From: Chromatiales bacterium
GTDB taxonomy: Bacteria > Pseudomonadota > Gammaproteobacteria > Thiohalomonadales > Thiohalomonadaceae
Assembly: GCA_029879245.1 (NCBI GenBank)
Contig: JAOUQQ010000009.1
Span: 1-42,154 of the forward strand
DNA length: 42,154 bases
Reading direction: 5' to 3'
In this document: piece by piece, positions 3,343-16,552 of the stretch
How positions within the stretch are numbered: the first letter of the stretch is position 1
How the letters are laid out: each line of letters begins with the position of its first letter
Made by a program: the position numbers and the translations under genes
Notes under the pieces: model-generated
What the model was told of the DNA's origin: nothing
Database searches by the model: none
Seen by the model: only the letters and a program-made list of their open reading frames with translations

Positions 3343-4188
3343 ATGCAGTCACAACAACAGCACCCCAAACAGTTCAGTTTCGAATTTTTTCCGCCCAAGT
3401 CCAACGAGGGCGCGGCCAAGCTGCGCGAGACCCGCGATGAGCTGGCCAAACTCAAGCCCAAATATGTCTCTGTCACCTTCGGTGCCGGTGGCTCCACCCA
3501 GGCCGGTACCGTGGAGACGGTGCGCGAGATGAGCCAGTCTGGTCTCGACACCGCCCCGCACCTGAGCTGCATCGGCTCCAACAAGGAGGAGATCCGAGCG
3601 CTGCTCAACGGCTATATTGAGATGGGCGTCAAACGCATCGTCGCCCTGCGCGGCGACATGCCATCAGGGATGCGCGAGGCGGGGGCCTTCCACTATGCCA
3701 ACGAGCTGGTGGAGTTCATTCGTGATGAGACTGGCGACCACTTCCACATCGAGGTGGCCGCCTATCCGGAATTTCATCCTCAGGCCCCATCCGCTGAGGC
3801 GGACCTCGACAACTTCGCCCGCAAGGTAAAGGCGGGGGCAAACGCGGCGATTACCCAGTACTTCTACAACCTCGACGCCTACCTGCGCTTTGTCGAGGAG
3901 TGCGAGAAGCGCAACGTGGAGGTGCCGATCGTCCCCGGTATCATGCCGATCACCAACATCAAGAATCTCGCCCGCTTCTCCGAGATGTGCGGTGCCGAGA
4001 TACCGCGCTGGCTGCGACTGCGCCTTGAGGCATATGCTGAGGACACTCAATCGTTACGCGCCTTTGGCCTAGATGTCACCAGCGAGCTGTGTCGCCGCCT
4101 GCTCGAAGAGGGAGCGCCCGGTCTGCACTTCTACACTATGAATCAGGTTGCCCCAACGCGCATTATCTGGACCAATCTGGGACTCTAA
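3343..4188 (+). CDS. metF: 5,10-methylenetetrahydrofolate reductase
   Basis: MetF is a flavoprotein that reduces methylenetetrahydrofolate to methyltetrahydrofolate, the methyl source for regenerating methionine from homocysteine. The 281-residue product begins MQSQQQHPKQFSFEFFPPKS, with the FEFFPPK motif of the family, and ends in the usual FYTMN...TRIIWTNLGL region. I chose the ATG at 3343 because GGAG (3333-3336) is six bases upstream. In-frame ATGs at 3310 and 3331 exist, but the first lies inside the terminator stem. It completes the methyl cycle with metK and ahcY; rsmE follows after 13 bases. Confidence 0.95.
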   Translation: MQSQQQHPKQFSFEFFPPKSNEGAAKLRETRDELAKLKPKYVSVTFGAGGSTQAGTVETVREMSQSGLDTAPHLSCIGSNKEEIRALLNGYIEMGVKRIVALRGDMPSGMREAGAFHYANELVEFIRDETGDHFHIEVAAYPEFHPQAPSAEADLDNFARKVKAGANAAITQYFYNLDAYLRFVEECEKRNVEVPIVPGIMPITNIKNLARFSEMCGAEIPRWLRLRLEAYAEDTQSLRAFGLDVTSELCRRLLEEGAPGLHFYTMNQVAPTRIIWTNLGL

Positions 4189-4201
4189 GGGCTGGCAAGG
4201 C

Positions 4202-4933
4202 GTGCGTATTCCCCGCATCTTTCACCCCGAGTCGCTCTGTGACAACAGCCGACTCGCCCTTGCCAGCAATGCCGCTCGTCATGTGGGTCGGGTGTTGCGC
4301 CTGCGCGAGGGCGACGAACTCACCCTGTTCAATGGTTGCGGGGGTGAGTATCCCGCCACGATTGTTGAGCTTAATAAGCGTGAGCTATGGGTAGAGTGCA
4401 AGGAGAGGGTTGAGAGTGAGTGTGAATCACCCCTCAAGATCACCCTGGCCCAGGGCGTGTCGAAGGGTGATCGCATGGATTATACGATTCAGAAGGCGGT
4501 CGAACTGGGTATCTCCACCATTGTCCCCCTGAACACGGAACGCAGTGTTGTTAGCCTCAAAGGAGAGCGACTAGAGAAGAAGCTTGAGCACTGGCGTGGG
4601 GTGATTATCAGTGCCTGTGAACAGTGCGGCCGTAATACCCTGCCGGTGTTATCGCCACTTACCTCGCTCCACGAGTGGCTGATGCAACCACTTAATGGCA
4701 TGGGCCTGACACTGGACCATCGTGCCGAGTGCGGTGTTAATGCACTCTCCCCGGAACATACCACAATCACCCTGCTGGTAGGGCCTGAGGGGGGATTATC
4801 CGTAGCCGAGAGGTCTGCTGCCTCAGCTGCCGGGTATCATGGGATGAGACTGGGCCCGCGCGTGCTGCGTACCGAAACCGCAGCCCTCACTGCACTGGCT
4901 GCTCTGCAATCGCGCTGGGGCGATCTCGGCTAA
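4202..4933 (+). CDS. rsmE: 16S rRNA (uracil-1498-N3)-methyltransferase
   Basis: RsmE methylates N3 of U1498 in 16S rRNA of the assembled small subunit, using S-adenosylmethionine. From the GTG at 4202 the product is 243 residues, the same length as E. coli RsmE, and begins RIPRIFHPE, the usual N-terminal PUA-like start. The C-terminal SPOUT (trefoil-knot) fold shows LLVGPEGGLS and the LGPRVLRTETA knot motif. A longer frame from 4148 overlaps metF and lacks homology before RIPRIF. The downstream end lies five bases from the convergent cytochrome gene. A SAM-dependent enzyme behind the SAM-cycle genes suits co-transcription. Confidence 0.93.
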   Translation: MRIPRIFHPESLCDNSRLALASNAARHVGRVLRLREGDELTLFNGCGGEYPATIVELNKRELWVECKERVESECESPLKITLAQGVSKGDRMDYTIQKAVELGISTIVPLNTERSVVSLKGERLEKKLEHWRGVIISACEQCGRNTLPVLSPLTSLHEWLMQPLNGMGLTLDHRAECGVNALSPEHTTITLLVGPEGGLSVAERSAASAAGYHGMRLGPRVLRTETAALTALAALQSRWGDLG

Positions 4934-4938
4934 ACACC

Positions 4939-5634
4939 TTACTTCATCATCGCAATGTAGTGGGCCAGCGATTCAATCTCCTCATCGGTCAGAAACTGGG
5001 TTACCTGCTCCATATTGGCATTACTCCGTTCCCGCTTTTCTGCATCGATCATCCCTTTGGCGTTGGCACGAAAGCGTGACAGCGTCATCTTCAGATAATC
5101 TATCCTCTGTCCCGCCAAACGTGCGTATCCCTCCTCACCACGTCCATCCTCGCCGTGGCACCGCGCGCATACAGTTCTGTATTTCTCCACACCCTTTGCT
5201 GCAACATCCGGATTGGCATTGGCCAAAGGCTTCAGCTTTTGTGAGTGGAAGTAGATGGCCAGGTTGATTTTATCTTCCAGGGAAAAGCTCTTCACCAGTG
5301 CCTGCATAACGAAGCTTTTGCGACGACCGTCCTTAAACTTGGCCATCTGCTCAACGATGTAAGAGGGATTTTGTCCTGCTAGATTAGGGGTTTCAGGTTT
5401 TACTGCATTGCCATCAGGGCCATGGCAGGTTCCACAGAGGGCGGTCCGCTCCTCTCCGGCGCGCATCGCTCTGTTGTAGAGTGTCTTATCATTTAGTCGT
5501 TTATCAACTTCGACAATAATCTGTTCACGTTCCTGCAACGCCTGATCAGCTTCTGCATAGCAAAACTCAGACAGTAACATCACTGAGAAAACCGCGGTAA
5601 AATAACTCCCCCGCGCAATCAACCGCCTGCTCAC
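4939..5634 (-). CDS. di-heme class I cytochrome c (c4/c553-like), exported
   Basis: The 231-residue product has an N-terminal signal peptide (hydrophobic stretch to about residue 27, cleavage likely after CYA) and two CXXCH heme sites, CGTCH at 67-71 and CARCH at 156-160. Met110 and Met208 are plausible distal heme ligands. This is the layout of cytochrome c4-type periplasmic electron carriers. The GTG start lies 14 bases after chpC on the same strand, so it looks like the last gene of the Pil-Chp operon, an unusual position. About 40 residues between the signal peptide and heme 1 (EREQIIVEVDKRL region) look helical and charged. Its partner is unknown; an oxidase or a sulfur-oxidising enzyme would be typical. 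Confidence 0.88.
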   Translation of the reverse strand: MSRRLIARGSYFTAVFSVMLLSEFCYAEADQALQEREQIIVEVDKRLNDKTLYNRAMRAGEERTALCGTCHGPDGNAVKPETPNLAGQNPSYIVEQMAKFKDGRRKSFVMQALVKSFSLEDKINLAIYFHSQKLKPLANANPDVAAKGVEKYRTVCARCHGEDGRGEEGYARLAGQRIDYLKMTLSRFRANAKGMIDAEKRERSNANMEQVTQFLTDEEIESLAHYIAMMK

Positions 5635-5648
5635 ACAACCCCCAAGAT

Positions 5649-6128
5649 TTATGCAGTAATGCCTAAACTTTCCAGCATATTTTCGATTTTATCTACATTA
5701 GGCACAATCATCGATTCACCATCCAGATGCAATGTTGCATATACCACTGGAGCATCGATTTTATTGTTCTCATCGTACTCTAACATCTCATGTTTCAGCA
5801 GTATCAAGCGTGGTAACGCCTGAATTTCCATCGCTATGAATGGAATACGCGGATTATTATTAAGTGTGTTCATAACTACCATCCGCGTTTGATCGTGCCG
5901 CCCAGGAGACTCTCCTCCCAGTATCTCCTCAAAGACGATAAGCGGAACATTTCGACCTCGCCAGGAGATAATGCCATTTAACCAGCCGGGTGAGTTACCC
6001 GCGCCTTTAACATCCACGCACTCTGTCACCTCGGCAATCAGTGTATTGGGTAACAATAACCTGGTTCCCGCCAACTCTAGTACGAAGCATCGTACTGCAA
6101 TTTCCTGCAACTGATCTTCACTTACCAC
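5649..6128 (-). CDS. chpC: CheW-like coupling protein ChpC
   Basis: The 159-residue protein is a single CheW-like domain: FVLELAGTRLLLP near the start, then PGWLNGIISWRGRNVPLI at about residues 47-65. CheW proteins link chemoreceptors to the CheA-type kinase. It lies directly downstream of chpA (nine bases between chpA stop and this GTG start, with GAGG eight bases ahead). That is the place of chpC in the Pseudomonas Chp cluster, except that chpB is missing in between. By analogy it is an accessory adaptor that brings extra receptors to ChpA. The assignment rests on position plus the domain; the sequence alone says only CheW-like. Confidence 0.85.
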   Translation of the reverse strand: MVSEDQLQEIAVRCFVLELAGTRLLLPNTLIAEVTECVDVKGAGNSPGWLNGIISWRGRNVPLIVFEEILGGESPGRHDQTRMVVMNTLNNNPRIPFIAMEIQALPRLILLKHEMLEYDENNKIDAPVVYATLHLDGESMIVPNVDKIENMLESLGITA

Positions 6129-6137
6129 GCATTAACC

Positions 6138-9100
6138 TCACTTGGCCAGTTCCAGTTGCTTTTCAATATTTGTCAACAGATCGGCCTCAGTATAGGGCTT
6201 ACCCATATATTCGTTTACACCTATGTCCATCGCACGTTGGCGGTGCTTATCGCCGGTACGGGAGGTGATCATAATGATAGGGATACCCTTCAGTCGCTCT
6301 GAGTTACGGATATGGGTTGCCAGTTCAAAACCATCCATCCGCGGCATCTCTATATCAAGCAGCATGACATCCGGGATTACTTCGTCGAGAACCGTGATTG
6401 CATCCACACCATCCTTTGCAGTAACACACTTCATATTGTTCCGTTTCAGTAATCGTTCGGTAACCTTACGCACAGTAATGGAGTCGTCCACAACCATTAC
6501 CACTGGCTCGCGATCGACAACCGGTAGCGCCTCCGTTCTGGTAACACTCTCGGTGCCTAGCTTTGCCAGACCGCGACGAACCAGTGCCGGCATATCGATA
6601 ATGAGAGCAACACTTCCATCTGCAAGAATCGTTGCACCCGCCAGATCCTGCAGACTGCTAAGCTGCGGTCCCAGACTCTTCACCACAATTTCACGGCTAC
6701 CAATGAGTCCATCCACCGCAAAGGCCACCCGATGACCACCACTGGTTGAAAGGAGCAGCGGCTGTTTGGTGCCCAGATGTATAGCGCCACTCCCTGCACC
6801 CAGCACACTGGTCAGGTGCATGACATGATAATCCTCGTTAACCCAGTTGAAGGTGGGGGCCTCTGTCTCAAGTAATGATTCAAGTTCAGCGCCCGCAATC
6901 CTTTCAATACCACTAATACTCAGGATCGGTATTGCGTAGATATCATCACCCACATTGACCAACAGCGCTCGACTCACAGACAATGTTAATGGCAGACGCA
7001 CCGTAAACAGCGTCCCTTTGCCATATTCGGAGTCTATCTCCAGCACACCACCAAGCTGTTTTATTTCACTATTAACCACATCCATGCCCACACCACGTCC
7101 TGCGATCTGGGTTAGTGCTGCCGCGGTGGAGAAGCCAGACTCAAGAATAAAATGCATGATCTCCTTGTCACTTAATTGTGCACCCGCCTGCATAAGTCCC
7201 CGATCAATTGCCTTTTTCTTTACCGCCTCAAGATTGATACCACCCCCATCATCACTGACGCGTATCACAATCTCGGATCCCTCACGGGTCAGCGCAACAT
7301 GTATCGTCCCCTCTTCAGGTTTTCCTGCTTTTTTGCGCGCTGCCTTGTCTTCAATACCGTGTGCAAGAGAGTTACGTAACATGTGTTCCAGCGGTGCGAG
7401 CATCCGCTCTACCACGTTGCGATCCATCTCAACCTCTACGCCATCAAGAACCAGTGACGCACGCTTACCTAGTTCTGATGCCGTTTGGCGAACGACACGC
7501 CTGAGTCGCGGCGCCTGTTCAGACATTGGCACCATGCGAGTGTGCATCAAACTCTCTTGCAGTTCGGTATTAACTCGCGACTGTTGTAACAGCAGGGTTT
7601 CTGTTTCACGGGAGAGACCACGTAGCATCTCCTCGATGCTAAGCAGGTCATTCAGAGACTCTGCCATTGAGCGTGAAAGGGTCTGCATGTTGGTAAATCG
7701 GTCGAATTCAAGCGGATCGAAATCATCATATCCCTGCTTCTGTGCCTCAGCACGCCGTGAATCGATCTGCGCCTCCGTCTCAATCTCTACCTGACGCAGC
7801 TGATCACGCAGTCGCGCAATGGTCTGATCCATCTCGCCAAGGTTTGAACCAAAGGTTCCGATCTGCTGCTCAACACGGGAGCGATAGATACTTACCTCAC
7901 CAGCAAAGTTTGCTAGATTGTCCAGTAAGTCAGCACGCACACGAACCACCTCGTGCTGGATCCGTGGCGCCTTGCGTCTTTTGTCGTCAGCATCTTCGGC
8001 TACTTTATTTTTTATTGCCTTTCTCTTAGCCGCCTCATCAATGTCAACAACAATCTCGTCTGTGATTCCCTCCTCACGTGCCAGTCCCTCAGCGATTAAG
8101 TCACGTATACCGCTAACGATAAACAATCCATTCTCAAGTGAGACGCCATCACGCTGCTGATTTGCAATAAGGTGCATGCGCTCAGATGCAAGCGTGAGGA
8201 GATCACTCACCTTTTCGCTGGTAGCAACATGCCCATCGTTGATTGCACTAATCAACACCTGAAGTGCATCTGCGATCTCAATCAGCGGTACAATGCGTGA
8301 CGCGTGACACCCCACATTGAGAGAATCAACTGCCTGACTGAGTGAATCAAATAGATCCGCATCATCTGTGTCACGCTGCCATGCAGTTAAAGCATCCCCC
8401 AGTGTGTCGAATAGCGTGTACAGTGCGCCAAGTGGTTTTGTTGCAACAGTCGATGACTCTTCTTCAACAATCTCAAGATCGATATCCGAGTCAAACTCAT
8501 CATCGCTAACCAGCTCAGGCTCCAGCAGTTCAATCTCATCGGCCGCATCCAACAATTCAATCTCATCAAATTCAACTGAATCTGAATTACTGTCAACGAA
8601 ATTGTCTTGATCTCCATCAACAGTGATCTCTTCAACTGTGCTCATAACCGGATTGCTCAGTGCATCAACACGCGCTATCAGGTCATCTCCAGAAACTACC
8701 GGCTCCTGATTCCGCACCTGCTCCAGCATGGTCACCAATCGGTCATGGGAGAGCTGCAGCAAATCAATCATTTCAGGACTACGTTCCAGCATCCCGTCTA
8801 CAACTGCATCAAATGTGGACTCCAGGCTATGACTCAAATCGCCGACAGGGGTTATGCCCGCCATACGCGCACCACCCTTCAGTGTATGCAACTGCCGCTG
8901 TAGTGCTTCAACAAGGGAACGATCATCTGGGTTGTTCACCCACTCTTGAAGGGTCTGCTCACTCTCATTAAGGATATCGACTCCCTCTTCAAGGAAGATA
9001 TCCAGCAGTTCTGGATCGTACTCCTCCTCAAAAGAAGCGAAGGCAGGTTGAGCTACAGCTGGTGTAGCGAATACATCTTCTAGTGATTCTGGCTCCTGTG

Positions 9101-12089
9101 CATCAAACTCAATGAGCACCTCATCCTCAGTCAAAGTGCTACTTGGTTCATCAAGTGCACCCTGTAGCTCCTCTATATCGAGCTCAATTCCCGGACTGCC
9201 CGAGGCGGCATCCAGCGCCATCTCTATTAGCTCATCAGCCTGAACCGCTTCAGGCTCCAGAAGCTCCTCTGTTATCTCTTCAAGTGCCACAGCCTCAACT
9301 TCATCAATACTGGCGAGTCCCGCTTCAGGCGCAGCATCGGCCACGTGCTCTAGATGCTCAACCTCTGCGTAGACCTCTTCGGCCAGTGCCTTTGCCTGGC
9401 TGTTGTTGGGGTAGGGTTTTGAACTATCGAGAAGATATGTCAACATTGCATCGACATAGTCAACGCACTGTTGCAAAGCCTCCACTCCTTTATCATTCAC
9501 AGTCTCGTTCAGAGCCTGGAGTGTTTTACAATACTTTTCCAGTGCCTTACTTACATCTGAAACACTATTCACCCCGGCCATGTGAGAGCTCCCCTTAAGG
9601 GTATGCAGGGCACGAATGATCGGTTCACTGACCTTTCTACTACCTCCCTCTGAGATCTCACGCAGGTAAGCCCTGAGCACCTCAAGATGCCCCTCAGACT
9701 CTTTGCTATAGATCTCCAGTAGCACCGGATCCAGATCTGGTAAATCTATAGCCGCGTCTTCTTCACCACTCTGAGATGCCGACTCTTCTTTGTGCGATAC
9801 CGGTACTTCACTTTTTGGGGGAGGAGAGGGTGGCGGCGATTTAACTTCACCCGACTGCGCCATCTCCTCTGCCATTTGCCGTAGTGTTTCTGCGTCACCA
9901 GCTGAAGCAGAGCCACCCTTAAAACGATCCACCAGAGACGGCAAAGTCTCATTGGCCTGCTGCAGCATATCGAACATTGTTGTGCTACTACTGATCGTTC
10001 CATCAAGCACTCGGTTAAGCATATTCTCAAAGGCCCAGGCAAATTCACCGACCTCTACTGCACCAACCAGTCGCCCACTCCCTTTCAATGTATGGAAGCA
10101 GCGGCGAAGATCCTTTAGGCTCTCTTCATCCCCTGCATCAGCAATCCATCTGGGTAACAGATCGCCAATTTTCTCGAGCTCTTCTTCCGCCTCTTCGATA
10201 AAGATCTCAAGAATCTCATCATCTACCTCTACCGTAGCAGCACTTTGTGCTGCACTTCTTGCAGCATCATTGGCTATACCCGTAGTTATTGGTTCATCAG
10301 CGACCTCTGGCTCATCACCGTCACTATCCACCGCAAGCATTTCATGCAAAGTGCCATCACCTACACTATCAATTGCAGTCTGCACCAACGGCGCATCACT
10401 CGCAGGATAACCCATCTGCGCCACAGCGTTTTCAGCCACATCCAGTACTGAACCGGGATGTACACGGCTCTGCACAAATGCTTCAAGATAATACTCGACG
10501 CTCATTACTGCGTCGGCAAGGGCATCAAGTTTCGATGCCTCTGGAAGTGTTTCACTGGAAATTAACTCATGGGCAATAAAGTGATTACATGAGTTCATAA
10601 TCTGCGCAACGCGCCGATAGGAGAGGACATTGAGGCTACCGATAACGAGATGCAACATATCGGGAATTTGCTTAAGGCTGCTTTTCTCACCCGGTTTTTC
10701 AAGATAGGCACTGATAGTCTCACGTATTTTGATGAGATCATCACGTGCCTCTTTCATCACCTGACGAATCACACGCTGATGCTCTGCTATCGCCTCAGGA
10801 GTTGAGTCTGCCTCTGCCACCTGTTCATCAGCGGCATCTGCCCTTTCAACAGGCGTTACATTACCCCAATCGCCAATCGCCGACTCCACCGCGAGAATTG
10901 CTCCGGCAATCCCCATCAGGTTGTCATCATTCGCCGTCAGCTCGCCTCTTACAAGTTGCTGTACAATTTCAACCTGTGATCTTAACGTCTGCTGCAGAGT
11001 CTCCTCCTGCAACAAACTTAATGTGTCAGCCATTCTTGTCAGATTTTCCGCCATAGGTTCAAGCCCTGTGGCATCGCTCCGCTCTGTGCGAACATATATA
11101 TCAAAAACATCCTTCGCACGAGCCAGCTCTTCCATAATATCTGCAGATATGGTCTTCTTTAGCTCTGCGTTGACACTAACAGGTAATGCACTTTCAACTG
11201 CCTCACCAGTGACATCCAGTCTGAAGGCCTGCCGAACCTCTAACGCACGGTTACCACTTGCCGTACTGCTGGCCAGTCTGTGAAGCAACACGGCAATAAG
11301 TTCGCTGACTGCATCAGTCACGAGCCCGGCCTCATCCCTAGCCACAAGGATCCTTATCTGCTGCTCAATTTTACCAAGCAGTTTCTTGTTCTCAACCGAG
11401 AGTTCAAGCGCATTATCTCGAAGGGCCTCAATAAATGCCGACGATACCCAAAGGAGTCGTCGGCACTCATCACCACTAGCTACTAGCAATATTTTTTCAA
11501 TAACTGCGCCGAGGTTCTTAAGACTGGTTTCTAGCTCCAGCCCCTTGATGACTCTCGTTAAGGCCGTAATAAGATAAGGTTGTACCTTCTTTGCCAGCAA
11601 ACGAGTGGTTACTCTGTCGGGGATTTCAGCTGCTTTTGCTGGGGGGTTAATCGATAGATCTGCGGCCGATTCGTCCTGCTGCGAAAGTGCCTGCTCACCT
11701 CGCTTCGTACGCATCTCATTTAATGTCGGTATCAGAGAAGACGCATTGTCCTTTTTCCCAGCCATCAACCCTTCCAGATAGTCTGGAAGTTGCAGAATAG
11801 CCTGCATTAATAACTCAAATCCACCATCCCTATTTTCAATTCTTTTTTCCCTTAAAGCGACAGCAAATTTCTCAATCTCCTCGGCAAACTGTGCGGCCCC
11901 CTGTAGTTCCACCATGTGCAAGGTACCGTATACCTGATGCACATAACTTATACAGAACTCAAGCTGAGACTCATCCTCTTCATCCTTGGCAAAGGCTTCG
12001 AGTGCGTTCTGCGCCTGTTTCAGCGTTTCATCAATTTCGCCCTTGACCCAGGCTAGCGTGCCGATATCAAATTGTTCAGCCATCTGCAT
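6138..12089 (-). CDS. chpA: ChpA hybrid histidine kinase of the Pil-Chp chemosensory system
   Basis: This 1983-residue protein is the central kinase of a type IV pilus chemosensory pathway. Three intact phosphotransfer (Hpt) motifs HTLKG have their histidines at 666, 829 and 1068. The first 600 residues contain degenerate Hpt-like helices (for example YVHQVYGTLHM). Long acidic linkers follow Hpt 2 and Hpt 3. The catalytic core begins with a P3 dimerisation helix at about 1420, then an ATPase domain (N-box N1573, DDGGG 1613-1617, GRGVGMD 1664-1670), a CheW-like domain at about 1710-1830 and a C-terminal receiver with phospho-acceptor D1912. Pseudomonas ChpA is longer, with more Xpt domains. 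AGGTGG lies seven bases before the ATG. Likely phosphate targets are PilG and PilH. Confidence 0.96.
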   Translation of the reverse strand: MQMAEQFDIGTLAWVKGEIDETLKQAQNALEAFAKDEEDESQLEFCISYVHQVYGTLHMVELQGAAQFAEEIEKFAVALREKRIENRDGGFELLMQAILQLPDYLEGLMAGKKDNASSLIPTLNEMRTKRGEQALSQQDESAADLSINPPAKAAEIPDRVTTRLLAKKVQPYLITALTRVIKGLELETSLKNLGAVIEKILLVASGDECRRLLWVSSAFIEALRDNALELSVENKKLLGKIEQQIRILVARDEAGLVTDAVSELIAVLLHRLASSTASGNRALEVRQAFRLDVTGEAVESALPVSVNAELKKTISADIMEELARAKDVFDIYVRTERSDATGLEPMAENLTRMADTLSLLQEETLQQTLRSQVEIVQQLVRGELTANDDNLMGIAGAILAVESAIGDWGNVTPVERADAADEQVAEADSTPEAIAEHQRVIRQVMKEARDDLIKIRETISAYLEKPGEKSSLKQIPDMLHLVIGSLNVLSYRRVAQIMNSCNHFIAHELISSETLPEASKLDALADAVMSVEYYLEAFVQSRVHPGSVLDVAENAVAQMGYPASDAPLVQTAIDSVGDGTLHEMLAVDSDGDEPEVADEPITTGIANDAARSAAQSAATVEVDDEILEIFIEEAEEELEKIGDLLPRWIADAGDEESLKDLRRCFHTLKGSGRLVGAVEVGEFAWAFENMLNRVLDGTISSSTTMFDMLQQANETLPSLVDRFKGGSASAGDAETLRQMAEEMAQSGEVKSPPPSPPPKSEVPVSHKEESASQSGEEDAAIDLPDLDPVLLEIYSKESEGHLEVLRAYLREISEGGSRKVSEPIIRALHTLKGSSHMAGVNSVSDVSKALEKYCKTLQALNETVNDKGVEALQQCVDYVDAMLTYLLDSSKPYPNNSQAKALAEEVYAEVEHLEHVADAAPEAGLASIDEVEAVALEEITEELLEPEAVQADELIEMALDAASGSPGIELDIEELQGALDEPSSTLTEDEVLIEFDAQEPESLEDVFATPAVAQPAFASFEEEYDPELLDIFLEEGVDILNESEQTLQEWVNNPDDRSLVEALQRQLHTLKGGARMAGITPVGDLSHSLESTFDAVVDGMLERSPEMIDLLQLSHDRLVTMLEQVRNQEPVVSGDDLIARVDALSNPVMSTVEEITVDGDQDNFVDSNSDSVEFDEIELLDAADEIELLEPELVSDDEFDSDIDLEIVEEESSTVATKPLGALYTLFDTLGDALTAWQRDTDDADLFDSLSQAVDSLNVGCHASRIVPLIEIADALQVLISAINDGHVATSEKVSDLLTLASERMHLIANQQRDGVSLENGLFIVSGIRDLIAEGLAREEGITDEIVVDIDEAAKRKAIKNKVAEDADDKRRKAPRIQHEVVRVRADLLDNLANFAGEVSIYRSRVEQQIGTFGSNLGEMDQTIARLRDQLRQVEIETEAQIDSRRAEAQKQGYDDFDPLEFDRFTNMQTLSRSMAESLNDLLSIEEMLRGLSRETETLLLQQSRVNTELQESLMHTRMVPMSEQAPRLRRVVRQTASELGKRASLVLDGVEVEMDRNVVERMLAPLEHMLRNSLAHGIEDKAARKKAGKPEEGTIHVALTREGSEIVIRVSDDGGGINLEAVKKKAIDRGLMQAGAQLSDKEIMHFILESGFSTAAALTQIAGRGVGMDVVNSEIKQLGGVLEIDSEYGKGTLFTVRLPLTLSVSRALLVNVGDDIYAIPILSISGIERIAGAELESLLETEAPTFNWVNEDYHVMHLTSVLGAGSGAIHLGTKQPLLLSTSGGHRVAFAVDGLIGSREIVVKSLGPQLSSLQDLAGATILADGSVALIIDMPALVRRGLAKLGTESVTRTEALPVVDREPVVMVVDDSITVRKVTERLLKRNNMKCVTAKDGVDAITVLDEVIPDVMLLDIEMPRMDGFELATHIRNSERLKGIPIIMITSRTGDKHRQRAMDIGVNEYMGKPYTEADLLTNIEKQLELAK

Positions 12090-12101: not shown

Positions 12102-12956
12102 TTACTCCCTTACCTTGCGATAGGCCAGCGTATCTTTGCCTGACAGACGTTCCATCCTCTCATCATGCCATCCTACGACCTCACCACTACCCAATACCAG
12201 TAGTCCACCCGGTTTCAGATATTCGACCATTGCCGAAATTATTTCGTGACGTCTCTGTTGCGAGAAGTAAATCAGAACATTTTGACAAAAGATGATGTCC
12301 ATTTTCTCAAGCGGTGCGTGTTCAAGTTTTCGTATATTTAACTGCGAAAAGGCGACCCGCTGCCGCAGCTTTTCGTCAACCTCAAATTCACCACTATCTA
12401 GCTGCCTGAAGTATCGCGACACCATCTGGTGATCAAGTTCACGCATCCGATGCTCTGGATATCTTCCCAGCTTAGCAACACTAAGACTCTCCAGACTTAT
12501 ATCTGTCCCGATCACCCCGAAATAGGCTTTACCCTGATAATTTTCCACGGCGACATCAAGTAACATCGCCAAGTAGTAGGCCTCTTCACCACTTGCACAA
12601 CCGACACTCCATGCCCGAATGTTGATCGTATCGGACGAGACGTCGTGCAACATCGGCTGAAGTATCTGTGTATTGATCAGTTGAAATGCCGCTGGGTGTC
12701 GATTGAATCGAGTCTCGTGAATGGTCAGCAGATCGAGTAAGCGGCTCCATTCCATCGCCCCCTTGGCCGAAGCAGTAACCAAGCGATAGTACTCTTCAAA
12801 ATCATTCAGTGCGATCTCTCGCATGCGAGTACGAAGTCGCGAGGAGAGGAAGGCCTTGCGCTGTACTGTTACTGCAACGCCTAACCGCTCTTCCAGTAGT
12901 TGAGCCCAACGAAGAAACTGCTGATCATCCAACTCTGGTATTATCACTATGCTCAC
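12102..12956 (-). CDS. pilK: PilK, CheR-type chemoreceptor methyltransferase
   Basis: PilK transfers methyl groups from S-adenosylmethionine to glutamates of the receptor, here presumably PilJ, to set adaptation. The 284-residue product has a helical CheR N-domain followed by a Rossmann methyltransferase domain. The SAM-binding WSVGCASGEEAYYL is near residues 115-128, and DIIFCQNVLIYF near 220-231 is the usual active-site strand. It starts with GTG behind a G-rich Shine-Dalgarno and lies 12 bases before chpA. No CheB-type methylesterase (ChpB) is present in this cluster, so the reverse reaction must be encoded elsewhere or be absent. Confidence 0.94.
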   Translation of the reverse strand: MSIVIIPELDDQQFLRWAQLLEERLGVAVTVQRKAFLSSRLRTRMREIALNDFEEYYRLVTASAKGAMEWSRLLDLLTIHETRFNRHPAAFQLINTQILQPMLHDVSSDTINIRAWSVGCASGEEAYYLAMLLDVAVENYQGKAYFGVIGTDISLESLSVAKLGRYPEHRMRELDHQMVSRYFRQLDSGEFEVDEKLRQRVAFSQLNIRKLEHAPLEKMDIIFCQNVLIYFSQQRRHEIISAMVEYLKPGGLLVLGSGEVVGWHDERMERLSGKDTLAYRKVRE

Positions 12957-12996: not shown

Positions 12997-15087
12997 TTAA
13001 TCTGGCAGCTTGAAGCCGGATACTGAACGTTTTAGTTCACTCGCGAGCTCCGAGAGATTACCGATAGACTGTGCCGTCTGGTTGGTACCCTCTGAAGTCT
13101 GTGTGGTGATCTCCTGAATAACATTCATCGTATCGGAGATATTAGACGCTGCATTCGCCTGCTGACGGGTTGCACTGGTGATACTCTGTACCAGTTCCGC
13201 GAGGTGGCTCGATACGCTTTCGATTTCAGAGAGTGCCGCACCTGCATCCTCGGCAATCTTGGCACCGGCAACTACCCCGGAGGTACTCTGCTCCATGGAG
13301 ATGATCGCCTCGTTGGTATCGGTTTGGATAGTCTTTACCAGTGCCTCAATCTGCTTGGTCGCATCAGAGGAACGTTCCGCCAGGCGGGTTACCTCGTCCG
13401 CTACCACCGCGAAGCCTCGACCTGCCTCACCGGCCATCGCCGCCTGTATCGCCGCATTAAGTGCCAGAATATTGGTCTGCTCGGCGATGTCATTAATAAG
13501 TTCAACGATATCCCCGATCTCCTGGGACGATTCACCCAGACGCTTAATCCGCTTCGAGGTCTCCTGGATCTGCTCACGAATTATGTCCATTCCATTGATA
13601 GTCTTCTGTACCGCCTCGGCACCCTTTTTCGCGATATCTACTGACCTTTGCGACTCTTCAGCAAGCTGGTCGGCGTTTTCAGATACGCCTTCGATTGAGA
13701 TTGCCATCTCGTTCACCGCGGTACTTGCGGAAGCAATCTGCTGTGCCTGATGGTTAGACGCCTCTGCCAGATGAGACGCGGTTGCCTGGGTCTTCTCCGC
13801 CGCACTGGTTACCTGACTTGCAGTCGTGTTAATCGCCGCAACCAGATTACGTAGCGCATCGATGGTAAAGTTCATCGAGTCAGCGATTGCACCAGTAATA
13901 TCTTCGGTTACCGTTGCATTCACCGTCAGGTCACCATCCGCCAGGTCCCCCATCTCATCCAGTAGACGCATGATCGCCTGCTGGCTTCGACGATTCTGCT
14001 CTTCTGTCGCCTGGCGCTGCGATTCTGTCTCGGCCAGCCGTACATCACCGTCACGTTTGAGTCGTGTACCCAGTGCGATAAGAAAGATAACGGTCAAAAT
14101 GGCCAGGGCGTTACCCACATTTGAGGAGAGTGCCCGGCTTCCCATCTCTGATTGATAAGCGGTGTGTAGCGCCGTAATACTTTCAAGCAGTGCATCAGAA
14201 TCATTCAGTACGGTTTGCACCGCCTCAGACACCAGAAACATCTCCGGGCTTCGTTCCAGAATACCGCTTACCTGCTGACCAAGCATATCGAAGAGGTCAC
14301 TTACCTCCTCTACCGCTTCAAGCACATCATCATCATCAACGGCCTCAATTTTCAGGGCCTCGTCACCCTCCAGCAATCCATCAATGACACGCCCATACAA
14401 CGCGGCATCTCGTCCAAATCGGTCTGCTGCGGTAACAGCACCCTCGCCACCCTCCAGTACCCGATTTACATTGTTGATAATACGTTGCGATAGCATCAAC
14501 TGGCGGCTAGCGATATAAACCTGATCTGAGGCTGCCCCTTTCTCCGCCATCATGGTAGCCACAGCATCCGTCTGTGAAAGCAATTGTGCCGAGTTCTCGT
14601 TAATCATCTTAACGATCTCGCGAAGTGCGATGACCACACCACGAGCATTAATGATTACCTCTGCGTTACTGTCATAGGACTTCCAGTTTTTAACTACCTG
14701 ATTCAACTTCCCAACAGTATCGCCTCTCGCAGCAGGAGGCATCCCGGTCTCTTTGTCTCCCATCTGCAACAGGTCGAGATTTTTCTTAAAATCATCACGA
14801 TATTTGATTAGTGAATCAAAGGTCGCAGGAATACCCCTGTTTGCCTGGCCCGCAAACTTCGATATCTGTTGCGACAACACCTGTTGTTCACCCAACAAAC
14901 CCAGGTATTCTTTATCGTACCGATCCTGTGTATTAACCAACCAGAACACGATGAAGGTGGCTGCCAGTGACAGCGCCAGACCGGCACCGATTACCGTTAG
15001 TCCCGCGCTTGCAGAGGGTGCGCTAGAGGCCCCTTTCGCCCCCCCTTTACCGACTGAGATTTTTTTCAAATTAAACGGTAACTTCAT
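12997..15087 (-). CDS. pilJ: PilJ, type IV pilus methyl-accepting chemoreceptor
   Basis: PilJ is the membrane receptor that feeds ChpA. The 696-residue product has a first membrane segment at about 28-50, a helical periplasmic region to about 320 with the two PilJ-type sensor repeats (each with ...RQLMLSQRI-like segments), a second membrane segment at about 322-342, a HAMP-like linker and a cytoplasmic signalling hairpin. The hairpin tip at about 532-566 reads [20 protein letters not shown], the PilJ variant of the usual IEAARAGE. The ATG has TAGGAG about ten bases upstream. Family knowledge: in Pseudomonas the receptor senses pilus state or surface contact. It is followed by pilK. Confidence 0.95.
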
Positions 15088-15164: not shown

Positions 15165-15698
15165 TCAGGCAGCCACCTGCATGAACTCCTGCATGTCGAC
15201 AAGGTGATTAATGTTAAACACACCCCACGACTCACCACGCTGGCGATACTGTCCCATCAACATCTTTTGAAACGGGACGTTGAGCTCACTAGTCTCACGA
15301 CTGTACTCCTCTTCCAGAAATTGGCGCATCCCTGTCACCTCCTCAACCAGTAACCCAGCCACCACACCCTTGTGCTGCATGACGAGAATGCGACTCTGGC
15401 GTGACATCTTAGTCATCTTCCCAATGAGAAAACCTTTGAGATCGACTATAGGAAGAAGGTTTCCACGAACATTTGCAACCCCACGAACCCATGGCTTGGC
15501 GCCTGGAATATGACTGATACTCACCTTCGTCAATATCTCCTTGATCTGATCGATCGGCGCAACCCACCCATTGCCATCCAGGGTAAAACCGACCCCTTCC
15601 CAGGTCGCCTTGACCTCAATCTGCTGAGGCAGACTGTGCGCACCAGCCCGGCTACGCAGGGCCAGTTCATGCAGAAGTAGAATGGGGGCCTTTTTCAT
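15165..15698 (-). CDS. pilI: PilI, CheW-like coupling protein
   Basis: This 177-residue CheW-domain protein is the main adaptor between PilJ and ChpA. The CheW core is visible as GVGFTLDGNGWVAPIDQI (about 36-53), PWVRGVANVRGNLLPIVDLKG (about 82-102) and the C-terminal FNINHLVD. It sits 14 bases downstream of pilH and 77 bases upstream of pilJ, as in the Pseudomonas order pilG-H-I-J-K. It differs from chpC, the second CheW-like gene of the operon, which lies after chpA. Confidence 0.93.
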   Translation of the reverse strand: MKKAPILLLHELALRSRAGAHSLPQQIEVKATWEGVGFTLDGNGWVAPIDQIKEILTKVSISHIPGAKPWVRGVANVRGNLLPIVDLKGFLIGKMTKMSRQSRILVMQHKGVVAGLLVEEVTGMRQFLEEEYSRETSELNVPFQKMLMGQYRQRGESWGVFNINHLVDMQEFMQVAA

Positions 15699-15712: not shown

Positions 15713-16078
15713 TCAACCCGCCAACAGTGTTGTTACCTTTTCAACCAGTGTCGCCTCATCAACGGGTTTAGTCAGGTAATCCTTTGCCCCCTGGCGCAGA
15801 CCCCAGACCCGGTCAGTCTCCTGATCTTTGGTGGTAACGATGATGATCGGAATATGCGCTGTCGCACTATCTTTACTGATCTGACGTGTAGCCTGAAAAC
15901 CATTCATTCCAGGCATCACGACATCCATCAGGATAAGATCTGGTACCAGCTCCTTGGCACGAACAATGCCCTCTTCACCATTGGGCGCAGTCTCAACACT
16001 GTGACCCATCTTCTGCAAAATGGTGGTTAGTACATGGATTTCGGTTGGCGAATCATCGACGATCAGGATCTGCGCCAT
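15713..16078 (-). CDS. pilH: PilH, single-domain response regulator
   Basis: PilH is a 121-residue CheY-like receiver with nothing attached. The acidic pocket is D8-D9, the phospho-acceptor is D52 (ILMDVVMPGMNG) and the conserved lysine is K104 (YLTKP). In Pseudomonas PilH opposes or dampens PilG, acting on retraction or as a phosphate sink for ChpA. It lies between pilG (72-base gap) and pilI (14-base gap). The order and the all-receiver architecture support the name; sequence alone would say CheY-like. Confidence 0.92.
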   Translation of the reverse strand: MAQILIVDDSPTEIHVLTTILQKMGHSVETAPNGEEGIVRAKELVPDLILMDVVMPGMNGFQATRQISKDSATAHIPIIIVTTKDQETDRVWGLRQGAKDYLTKPVDEATLVEKVTTLLAG

Positions 16079-16150
16079 GTTTCTACTCCTACTTGGTTTC
16101 TGAATGTAAATTAAACGCCACCCTCAGGGCGGCCACACTATGTTCGATTA

Positions 16151-16552
16151 TCAGGCCTTGTTCAGTACGTGCTGTTCAATGGCCCCCAACAACTCCTCCT
16201 TGGTGAAGGGTTTGGTTAAATACTGCTCAGATCCCACGATACGGCCACGGGCTCTGTCGAACAACCCGTCCTTGCTGGAGAGCATAATAACCGGGGTATT
16301 CTTGAACTTCTGGTTGTGTTTGATAAGGGCGCATGTCTGATAGCCATCCAGACGCGGCATCATAATGTCGACAAAGATGATATTAGGGTCGTTATCTGCA
16401 ATCTTGGAGAGGGCCTCAAAGCCATCATTTGCGGTGATGACCTCACACCCCTCCTTCTTCAGCAACGTTTCGGCGGTACGACGAATCGTTTTGCTGTCAT
16501 CGATGACCATGACCTTCAGGCCTTGCAACCCGGTTGGTGCTTCGCTTGCCAC
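16151..16552 (-). CDS. pilG: PilG, single-domain response regulator
   Basis: PilG is the first gene of the Pil-Chp operon: a 133-residue CheY-like receiver with acidic residues D18-D19, phospho-acceptor D62 (IIFVDIMMPRLDG) and K114 (YLTKPF). Family knowledge: phosphorylated PilG promotes pilus extension through the PilB motor and stimulates cAMP signalling in Pseudomonas. The start is a GTG right behind GGGGGAG. The gene is divergent from gshB across 254 bases, which repeats the conserved gshB//pilG junction of Pseudomonas genomes. Confidence 0.93.
   Translation of the reverse strand: MASEAPTGLQGLKVMVIDDSKTIRRTAETLLKKEGCEVITANDGFEALSKIADNDPNIIFVDIMMPRLDGYQTCALIKHNQKFKNTPVIMLSSKDGLFDRARGRIVGSEQYLTKPFTKEELLGAIEQHVLNKA

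Follow-up and report, generated by a model that had tools for sequence, protein, structure and literature searches.

A predicted cytochrome c4-like gene added to the Pil-Chp operon in one gammaproteobacterial family

The window analysed here, a stretch of 42,154 nucleotides from a Chromatiales bacterium, carries a Pil-Chp operon that ends in a gene for a di-heme cytochrome c, labelled CYT in the following. Judged from the sequence, this would be a Pil-Chp operon to which one gammaproteobacterial family has added a c4-like cytochrome. In the reading that we prefer tentatively, with a probability of roughly 45%, a c4-type periplasmic di-heme carrier would have been inserted between chpC and the convergent rsmE gene in or near the ancestor of the family, and would have been passed on ever since at the end of the operon. 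CYT is most likely co-transcribed with chpC, which would tie its amount to Pil-Chp expression, and the protein may shuttle electrons in soluble form, alongside the canonical cytochrome c4 of the genome. It would be kept since electron supply and the pilus or surface programme are presumably useful together, and it would take no part in the signalling chain. The anatomy and conservation of the chpC-CYT pair are solid. The features of the locus are listed in Table 1.

Table 1. Genes and spacer of the Pil-Chp locus in the window, from rsmE to the first gene of the operon.
Feature	Coordinates	Strand	Basis
rsmE, convergent neighbour, marks the old chpC-rsmE junction	4148..4933	plus	profile match and locus comparison
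CYT, di-heme cytochrome c	4939..5634	minus	231-aa ORF, GTG start; Pfam PF00034
chpC-CYT spacer	5635..5648	minus	14 nt, from sequence
chpC, CheW-like protein	5649..6128	minus	159-aa ORF; Pfam CheW
chpA, multi-Hpt CheA-type kinase with receiver domain	6138..12089	minus	ORF and Pfam
pilK, CheR-type methyltransferase	12102..12956	minus	gene order; best model PRK10611 CheR, under cut-off
pilJ, methyl-accepting chemotaxis protein with periplasmic PilJ domain	12997..15087	minus	chemotaxis models, under cut-off
pilI, CheW-like	15165..15698	minus	name from gene order; match under cut-off
pilH, single-domain response regulator	15713..16078	minus	name from gene order; profile match
pilG, single-domain response regulator, first gene of the operon	16151..16552	minus	name from gene order

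On the minus strand, the genes follow the order pilG-pilH-pilI-pilJ-pilK-chpA-chpC-CYT, several of these names resting on gene order and on matches under the curated cut-offs. The periplasmic domain of pilJ is marked by a PF13675 match at 14617-14937. CYT shows the properties of an operon member, namely the same strand, short spacing (14 nt to chpC, the other gaps of the operon being 9 to 77 nt) and no terminator. A consensus scan of positions 4300..6700 returned no promoter-like or terminator-like site on the minus strand; on the plus strand, one of each was found. Thus, the preliminary description was right that chpC is followed after 14 nt by a cytochrome gene in the same orientation, and that nothing resembling a terminator separates the two. 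A GGGGG run within the spacer, just 5′ of the GTG start, is a possible weak ribosome-binding site. The stop of CYT lies 5 nt from the stop of rsmE, making CYT the terminal gene of the operon. Its GC content is 0.506, compared with 0.45-0.52 for the operon and 0.58-0.63 for rsmE-metF-ahcY-metK. Only cytochrome-type domains exceeded the Pfam cut-offs in CYT, and no chemosensory domain was among them.

No sigma-70-like promoter was found on the minus strand near pilG and therefore the scan is uninformative on the operon start. A terminator-like hairpin between pilG and pilH (minus strand, 16117-16133) could mark a break between pilG and the remaining operon; the scan count in this stretch was near chance (2 found, 1.2 expected). 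Control of the operon or of CYT by FNR/ANR found no support. The intergenic stretch 5′ of pilG gave no match to the FNR/ANR consensus, and the matches with up to two mismatches were at chance level (21 versus 17.7 expected). One of them, with two mismatches, lies inside chpC (5794), some 160 nt 5′ of CYT. The one perfect FNR-type palindrome, at 8607-8620 within chpA, is probably a chance match.

The operon of Pseudomonas aeruginosa, with the order pilGHIJK-chpABCDE, served for comparison. The window shares with it the order pilG-pilH-pilI-pilJ-pilK-chpA-chpC. It differs in leaving no room for chpB, the chpA-chpC gap being 9 nt, and in ending in a cytochrome instead of chpD/chpE. Published accounts list P. 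aeruginosa pilJ to chpE in a table (PMC8088505) and assign chpD/chpE to the cluster (PMC4355966). Among the titles returned by literature searches on chp/PilJ together with cytochromes or on chp gene order, none was recognised as describing the arrangement of the window.

For the distribution of the pair, cytochrome and chpC matches were compared in one set of 95 genomes. Of the 20 genomes of the family, own genome included, 14 from 8 genera carry CYT directly past chpC and in the same orientation (G000, G002, G004, G006, G007, G008, G010, G011, G014, G015, G016, G017, G018 and G019). Because the adjacency recurs in 13 other family genomes, whose proteins share 42-53% identity with CYT of the window, it is not a matter of chance. 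This also bears out the earlier proposal that the operon closes with CYT, on the strand of the other genes. Spacing across the family varies between short gaps and small overlaps, the choice of start codons being uncertain. Two genomes, G001, which belongs to the genus of the window, and G012, have kept chp without CYT, and chpC is followed by rsmE after 114 and 56 nt, respectively. The chp operon of G009 is divergent and has a different gene past chpC. In G003, G005 and G013 the chpC match is absent or marginal (G003 is 82% and G013 72% complete), and no CYT-like match was found by E-value in these three genomes. Two tandem CYT genes lie past chpC in G004 (L065:3586-5217). G010 has a second copy away from chp (L117 / L080, G010:C27), which is convergent with a receiver-EAL protein and also near a large gene that is weakly chpA-like. 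Outside the family, the same arrangement occurs in a single genome, G080.

To place this arrangement within the class, we collected 39 chpC loci from 32 other families, which were hand-picked and not random. Thirty-seven of these (30 families) were usable; in one of the other two the contig ended too early, and in the second chpC did not form an ORF of its own. Genes were called from ORFs, which gives rough results in GC-rich genomes. A convergent rsmE lies at most 1.7 kb from chpC in 28 of the 37 loci, within 300 nt in 22, and is absent from the fetched stretch in 9. None of the 37 loci has a two-heme ORF downstream of chpC in the roughly 5 kb fetched. Since chpC in this sample mostly faces rsmE and is never followed there by a two-heme ORF, we take the chpC-rsmE junction to be old and stable across the class, and CYT to be a gene inserted into it. 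The comparison of chp operon ends suggested by the preliminary description thus has an answer: the sampled operons of other families mostly end at chpC. A cytochrome end is unusual, G080 being the sole case found outside the family. Other genes have entered the same place: an AFG1-type ATPase in G366 (L229:2036-3109) and an HPP membrane protein in G020 (L228:2004-2912), both co-directional with chpC and before a convergent rsmE. As the junction is old and stable (28/37), the conserved position of CYT by itself says little on selection for co-expression.

The CYT protein contains two CXXCH motifs (C66/C69/H70 and C155/C158/H159, in a numbering that omits the start residue), which are invariant in 15 of 15 aligned rows, as are M109 and M207. 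From their positions, the two methionines are probably the distal heme ligands. These ligands have stayed invariant while the 15 rows have diverged by about 50%. The N-terminus resembles a signal peptide, as judged by eye, and a periplasmic location is presumed. Pfam Cytochrom_C (PF00034) matches the second half of the protein. An AF2 model was built from 15 sequences, namely that of G080 and 14 from the family (window copy included), and reached a mean pLDDT of 88. In a Foldseek search with this model, the best matches were cytochromes c4, led by 8smr_K (E 1e-11, TMt 0.83), with 1etp (TMt 0.78) and 6q2u as further c4 matches; the first PDB match by sequence is a cytochrome c4 too. The predicted fold of CYT is therefore that of cytochrome c4. 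Like the c4 proteins of P. stutzeri (1etp) and P. aeruginosa (6q2u / 8smr), CYT would have two class-I domains with one CXXCH each, His/Met ligands and a signal peptide. It differs from the solved c4 structures, to which it is 25-31% identical, in about 30 extra residues between the presumed signal peptide and the c4-aligned part. They are modelled as a helix, which could be a docking part.

Sequence and fold searches also returned FccA and TsdBA, in accordance with an alternative in which CYT would be the subunit of a sulfur-oxidising enzyme of the flavocytochrome c (FccA) or TsdB type. A c4 entry came first in both searches, however, the neighbours of CYT are chpC and rsmE, and no flavoprotein or TsdA gene was seen in the operon. 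With no flavoprotein partner gene adjoining CYT, this assignment is largely refuted by context and we regard it as very improbable. CYT scored below the cut-offs of the periplasmic diheme shuttle PdsA (NF049874; 47.3 bits, cut-off 330) and of CcoP (TIGR00782; 42.4 bits, cut-off 179.95).

Phylogenetic analysis separated CYT and its kin from 15 generic c4 controls with an SH-aLRT of 99 in a tree of 89 rows, from which L137 is absent. The split recurred in a tree of 54 rows, which omits the long-branch sequences G320 and G245 and takes 16 CYT-like relatives and 6 of the 15 c4 controls. By these trees, CYT belongs to a sister subfamily outside the canonical c4 branch. The genome of the window has two other, weaker matches to CYT, one of which falls into the canonical c4 branch and lies at another locus, with ResB/CcsA-like genes as well as engB and polA, as read by eye; such a neighbourhood is usual for c4. 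Thus, CYT differs from the canonical-branch c4 of its own genome in both branch and locus.

The copies of the family group in a single clade, with an SH-aLRT of 97 in the tree of 54 rows and of 93 in that of 89 rows; in each tree, the clade also holds one unlinked paralog, the second copy of G010. A single clade fits one gain followed by vertical descent, and CYT may accordingly have been gained once, in or near the family ancestor. The cytochrome of G080 stands apart in the best tree, while a joint clade with the family was not rejected (AU p 0.223). Pairwise distances agree with this history. With 13 genomes (66 pairs), CYT distances correlated with those of seven of nine genes or domains at a raw r of 0.80-0.86, and at 0.65 with pilG and 0.38 with the cytoplasmic part of PilJ; with 10 genomes the raw correlations fell to 0.28-0.76. 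CYT distances thus track most of the operon genes and rsmE/metF, as vertical inheritance predicts.

In a class sample of 369 genomes, 15 had a strong CYT match (E up to 1.5e-46). The match adjoins chpC in four of them (G000, G006, G008 and G080); in the other 11, it lies among other genes, and chpC is either on a different contig or no less than about 65 kb distant. Viral contigs yielded no confirmed relative. The preliminary description had held that the link would fail if relatives carried the cytochrome away from chp, or if CYT had its own promoter and no pilus phenotype. The first of these was found for most strong relatives outside the family, in 11 of the 15 class genomes, and G001, of the same genus, has chp but lacks CYT; this is half of the refuting case.

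These data bear on a rival explanation in which CYT is a neutral passenger: a roaming c4-like gene would have landed by chance in the stable junction behind chpC and be expressed by read-through from chp, with no tie to pili. We consider this explanation nearly as likely as the shuttle. In the 11 genomes of other families, members of the subfamily lie among seemingly unrelated genes (by eye), and there is no covariation of evolutionary rates between CYT and PilJ (see below). The dispensability of CYT in G001 and G012, which retained chp, and the entry of unrelated genes into the same junction in other lineages likewise suit a passenger and were counted against the shuttle reading. On the other hand, place and direction have been kept in 14 of 20 genomes from 8 genera, where the proteins share 42-53% identity and retain their heme ligands, which a passenger would not explain easily. 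The missing CYT-like match in the three family genomes without a clear chpC (G003, G005 and G013) points the same way, with the proviso that one deletion could remove both genes and that G003 and G013 are incomplete.

The preliminary description had also proposed that a periplasmic electron carrier could link respiration or redox state to pilus control. Here, CYT would relay the periplasmic redox state to PilJ, or the reverse, and so tune Chp and the pilus. Within the family CYT lies in the pilJ operon, and the extra N-terminal helix might, by inference, dock to a partner. Pairs of CYT-subfamily and PilJ-domain genes also occur independently of this operon. Among 80 loci picked by likeness to CYT, and thus not random, were tldD-CYT loci of the Rhodocyclales type (Dechloromonas, Azonexus and relatives); in 16 of 22 of these, the next gene encodes a stand-alone, secreted-looking PilJ-domain protein, on the opposite strand in one of the 16. 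In two Sulfurimicrobium loci (L127, L128) a CYT-subfamily gene adjoins a PilJ-domain gene, and in seven loci of the Comamonadaceae type a stand-alone PilJ-domain protein lies a few genes from a CYT relative. PF13675 was confirmed on three of the stand-alone examples. The Rhodocyclales and Sulfurimicrobium pairs (L171, L176; L127, L128) resemble the window in having the same cytochrome subfamily beside a periplasmic PilJ-domain protein, but their PilJ part is stand-alone and secreted-looking, not part of a methyl-accepting chemotaxis protein, and no chp genes were recognised. The Rhodocyclales PilJ-domain protein (L171:9001-10514, L176, L164) has about 260 aa and is encoded between tldD and a DAHP synthase gene; the Sulfurimicrobium pair (L127:7837-9534) adjoins NirDL-type genes.

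Against a direct redox input stands, first, the neighbourhood of PilJ genes elsewhere. No PilJ-domain match was found next to the subfamily member in the 11 genomes of other families, nor beside a cytochrome in 7 genomes with canonical c4 only, and, of 23 stand-alone PilJ hits in the class sample, none of the 18 from genomes with listed cytochrome matches lies beside a cytochrome among the matches listed. Secondly, stand-alone PilJ-domain proteins occur a few genes from nap genes in G008 (L252:6118-11269, NapB and NapC/NirT families confirmed) and, by eye, in G014 (L256), hinting at a nitrate-related role. Hence, the pairing of CYT with PilJ may reflect nitrate respiration. Thirdly, the rates of CYT and of the periplasmic domain of PilJ do not covary (partial r -0.13 with 13 genomes, -0.16 with 10). 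For pilI, covariation was modest (partial r 0.39, p 0.041 with 13 genomes; 0.43, p 0.022 with 10) and would fit a redox input. The partial r for chpC was 0.40 (p 0.020), falling to 0.23 (p 0.179) with 10 genomes; that for rsmE, which is no pilus gene, was 0.29 (p 0.042), falling to 0.06; and that for pilG was -0.45. Because nine comparisons were made on 13 genomes, we give no weight to the covariation with pilI, chpC, rsmE or pilG. Considering the PilJ neighbourhoods, the lack of rate covariation and the nap-linked PilJ proteins, direct redox signalling by CYT to the pilus system is possible but not favoured; we consider it unlikely, and less likely than a passenger. With no rate covariation with PilJ and with relatives mostly away from chp, the suggested role in pilus control found no support.

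A broader idea, which we find more doubtful still, is that the CYT subfamily acts as a redox partner for periplasmic sensor domains of the PilJ type, the two forming one periplasmic redox sensor common to pilus control and anaerobic respiration. If so, CYT of the family would report the respiratory electron pool to Pil-Chp, and that of Rhodocyclales and Sulfurimicrobium would pair with a secreted PilJ-domain protein.

Which signal PilJ/Chp naturally responds to is a matter of debate. In some betaproteobacteria, a di-heme cytochrome subfamily distinct from canonical c4 is found repeatedly next to genes for PilJ-domain proteins. In the family of the window, a cytochrome that is stable in the operon across most members could be tested as a candidate respiratory input; alternatively, it would be a well-documented example of a passenger that has long persisted in an operon.
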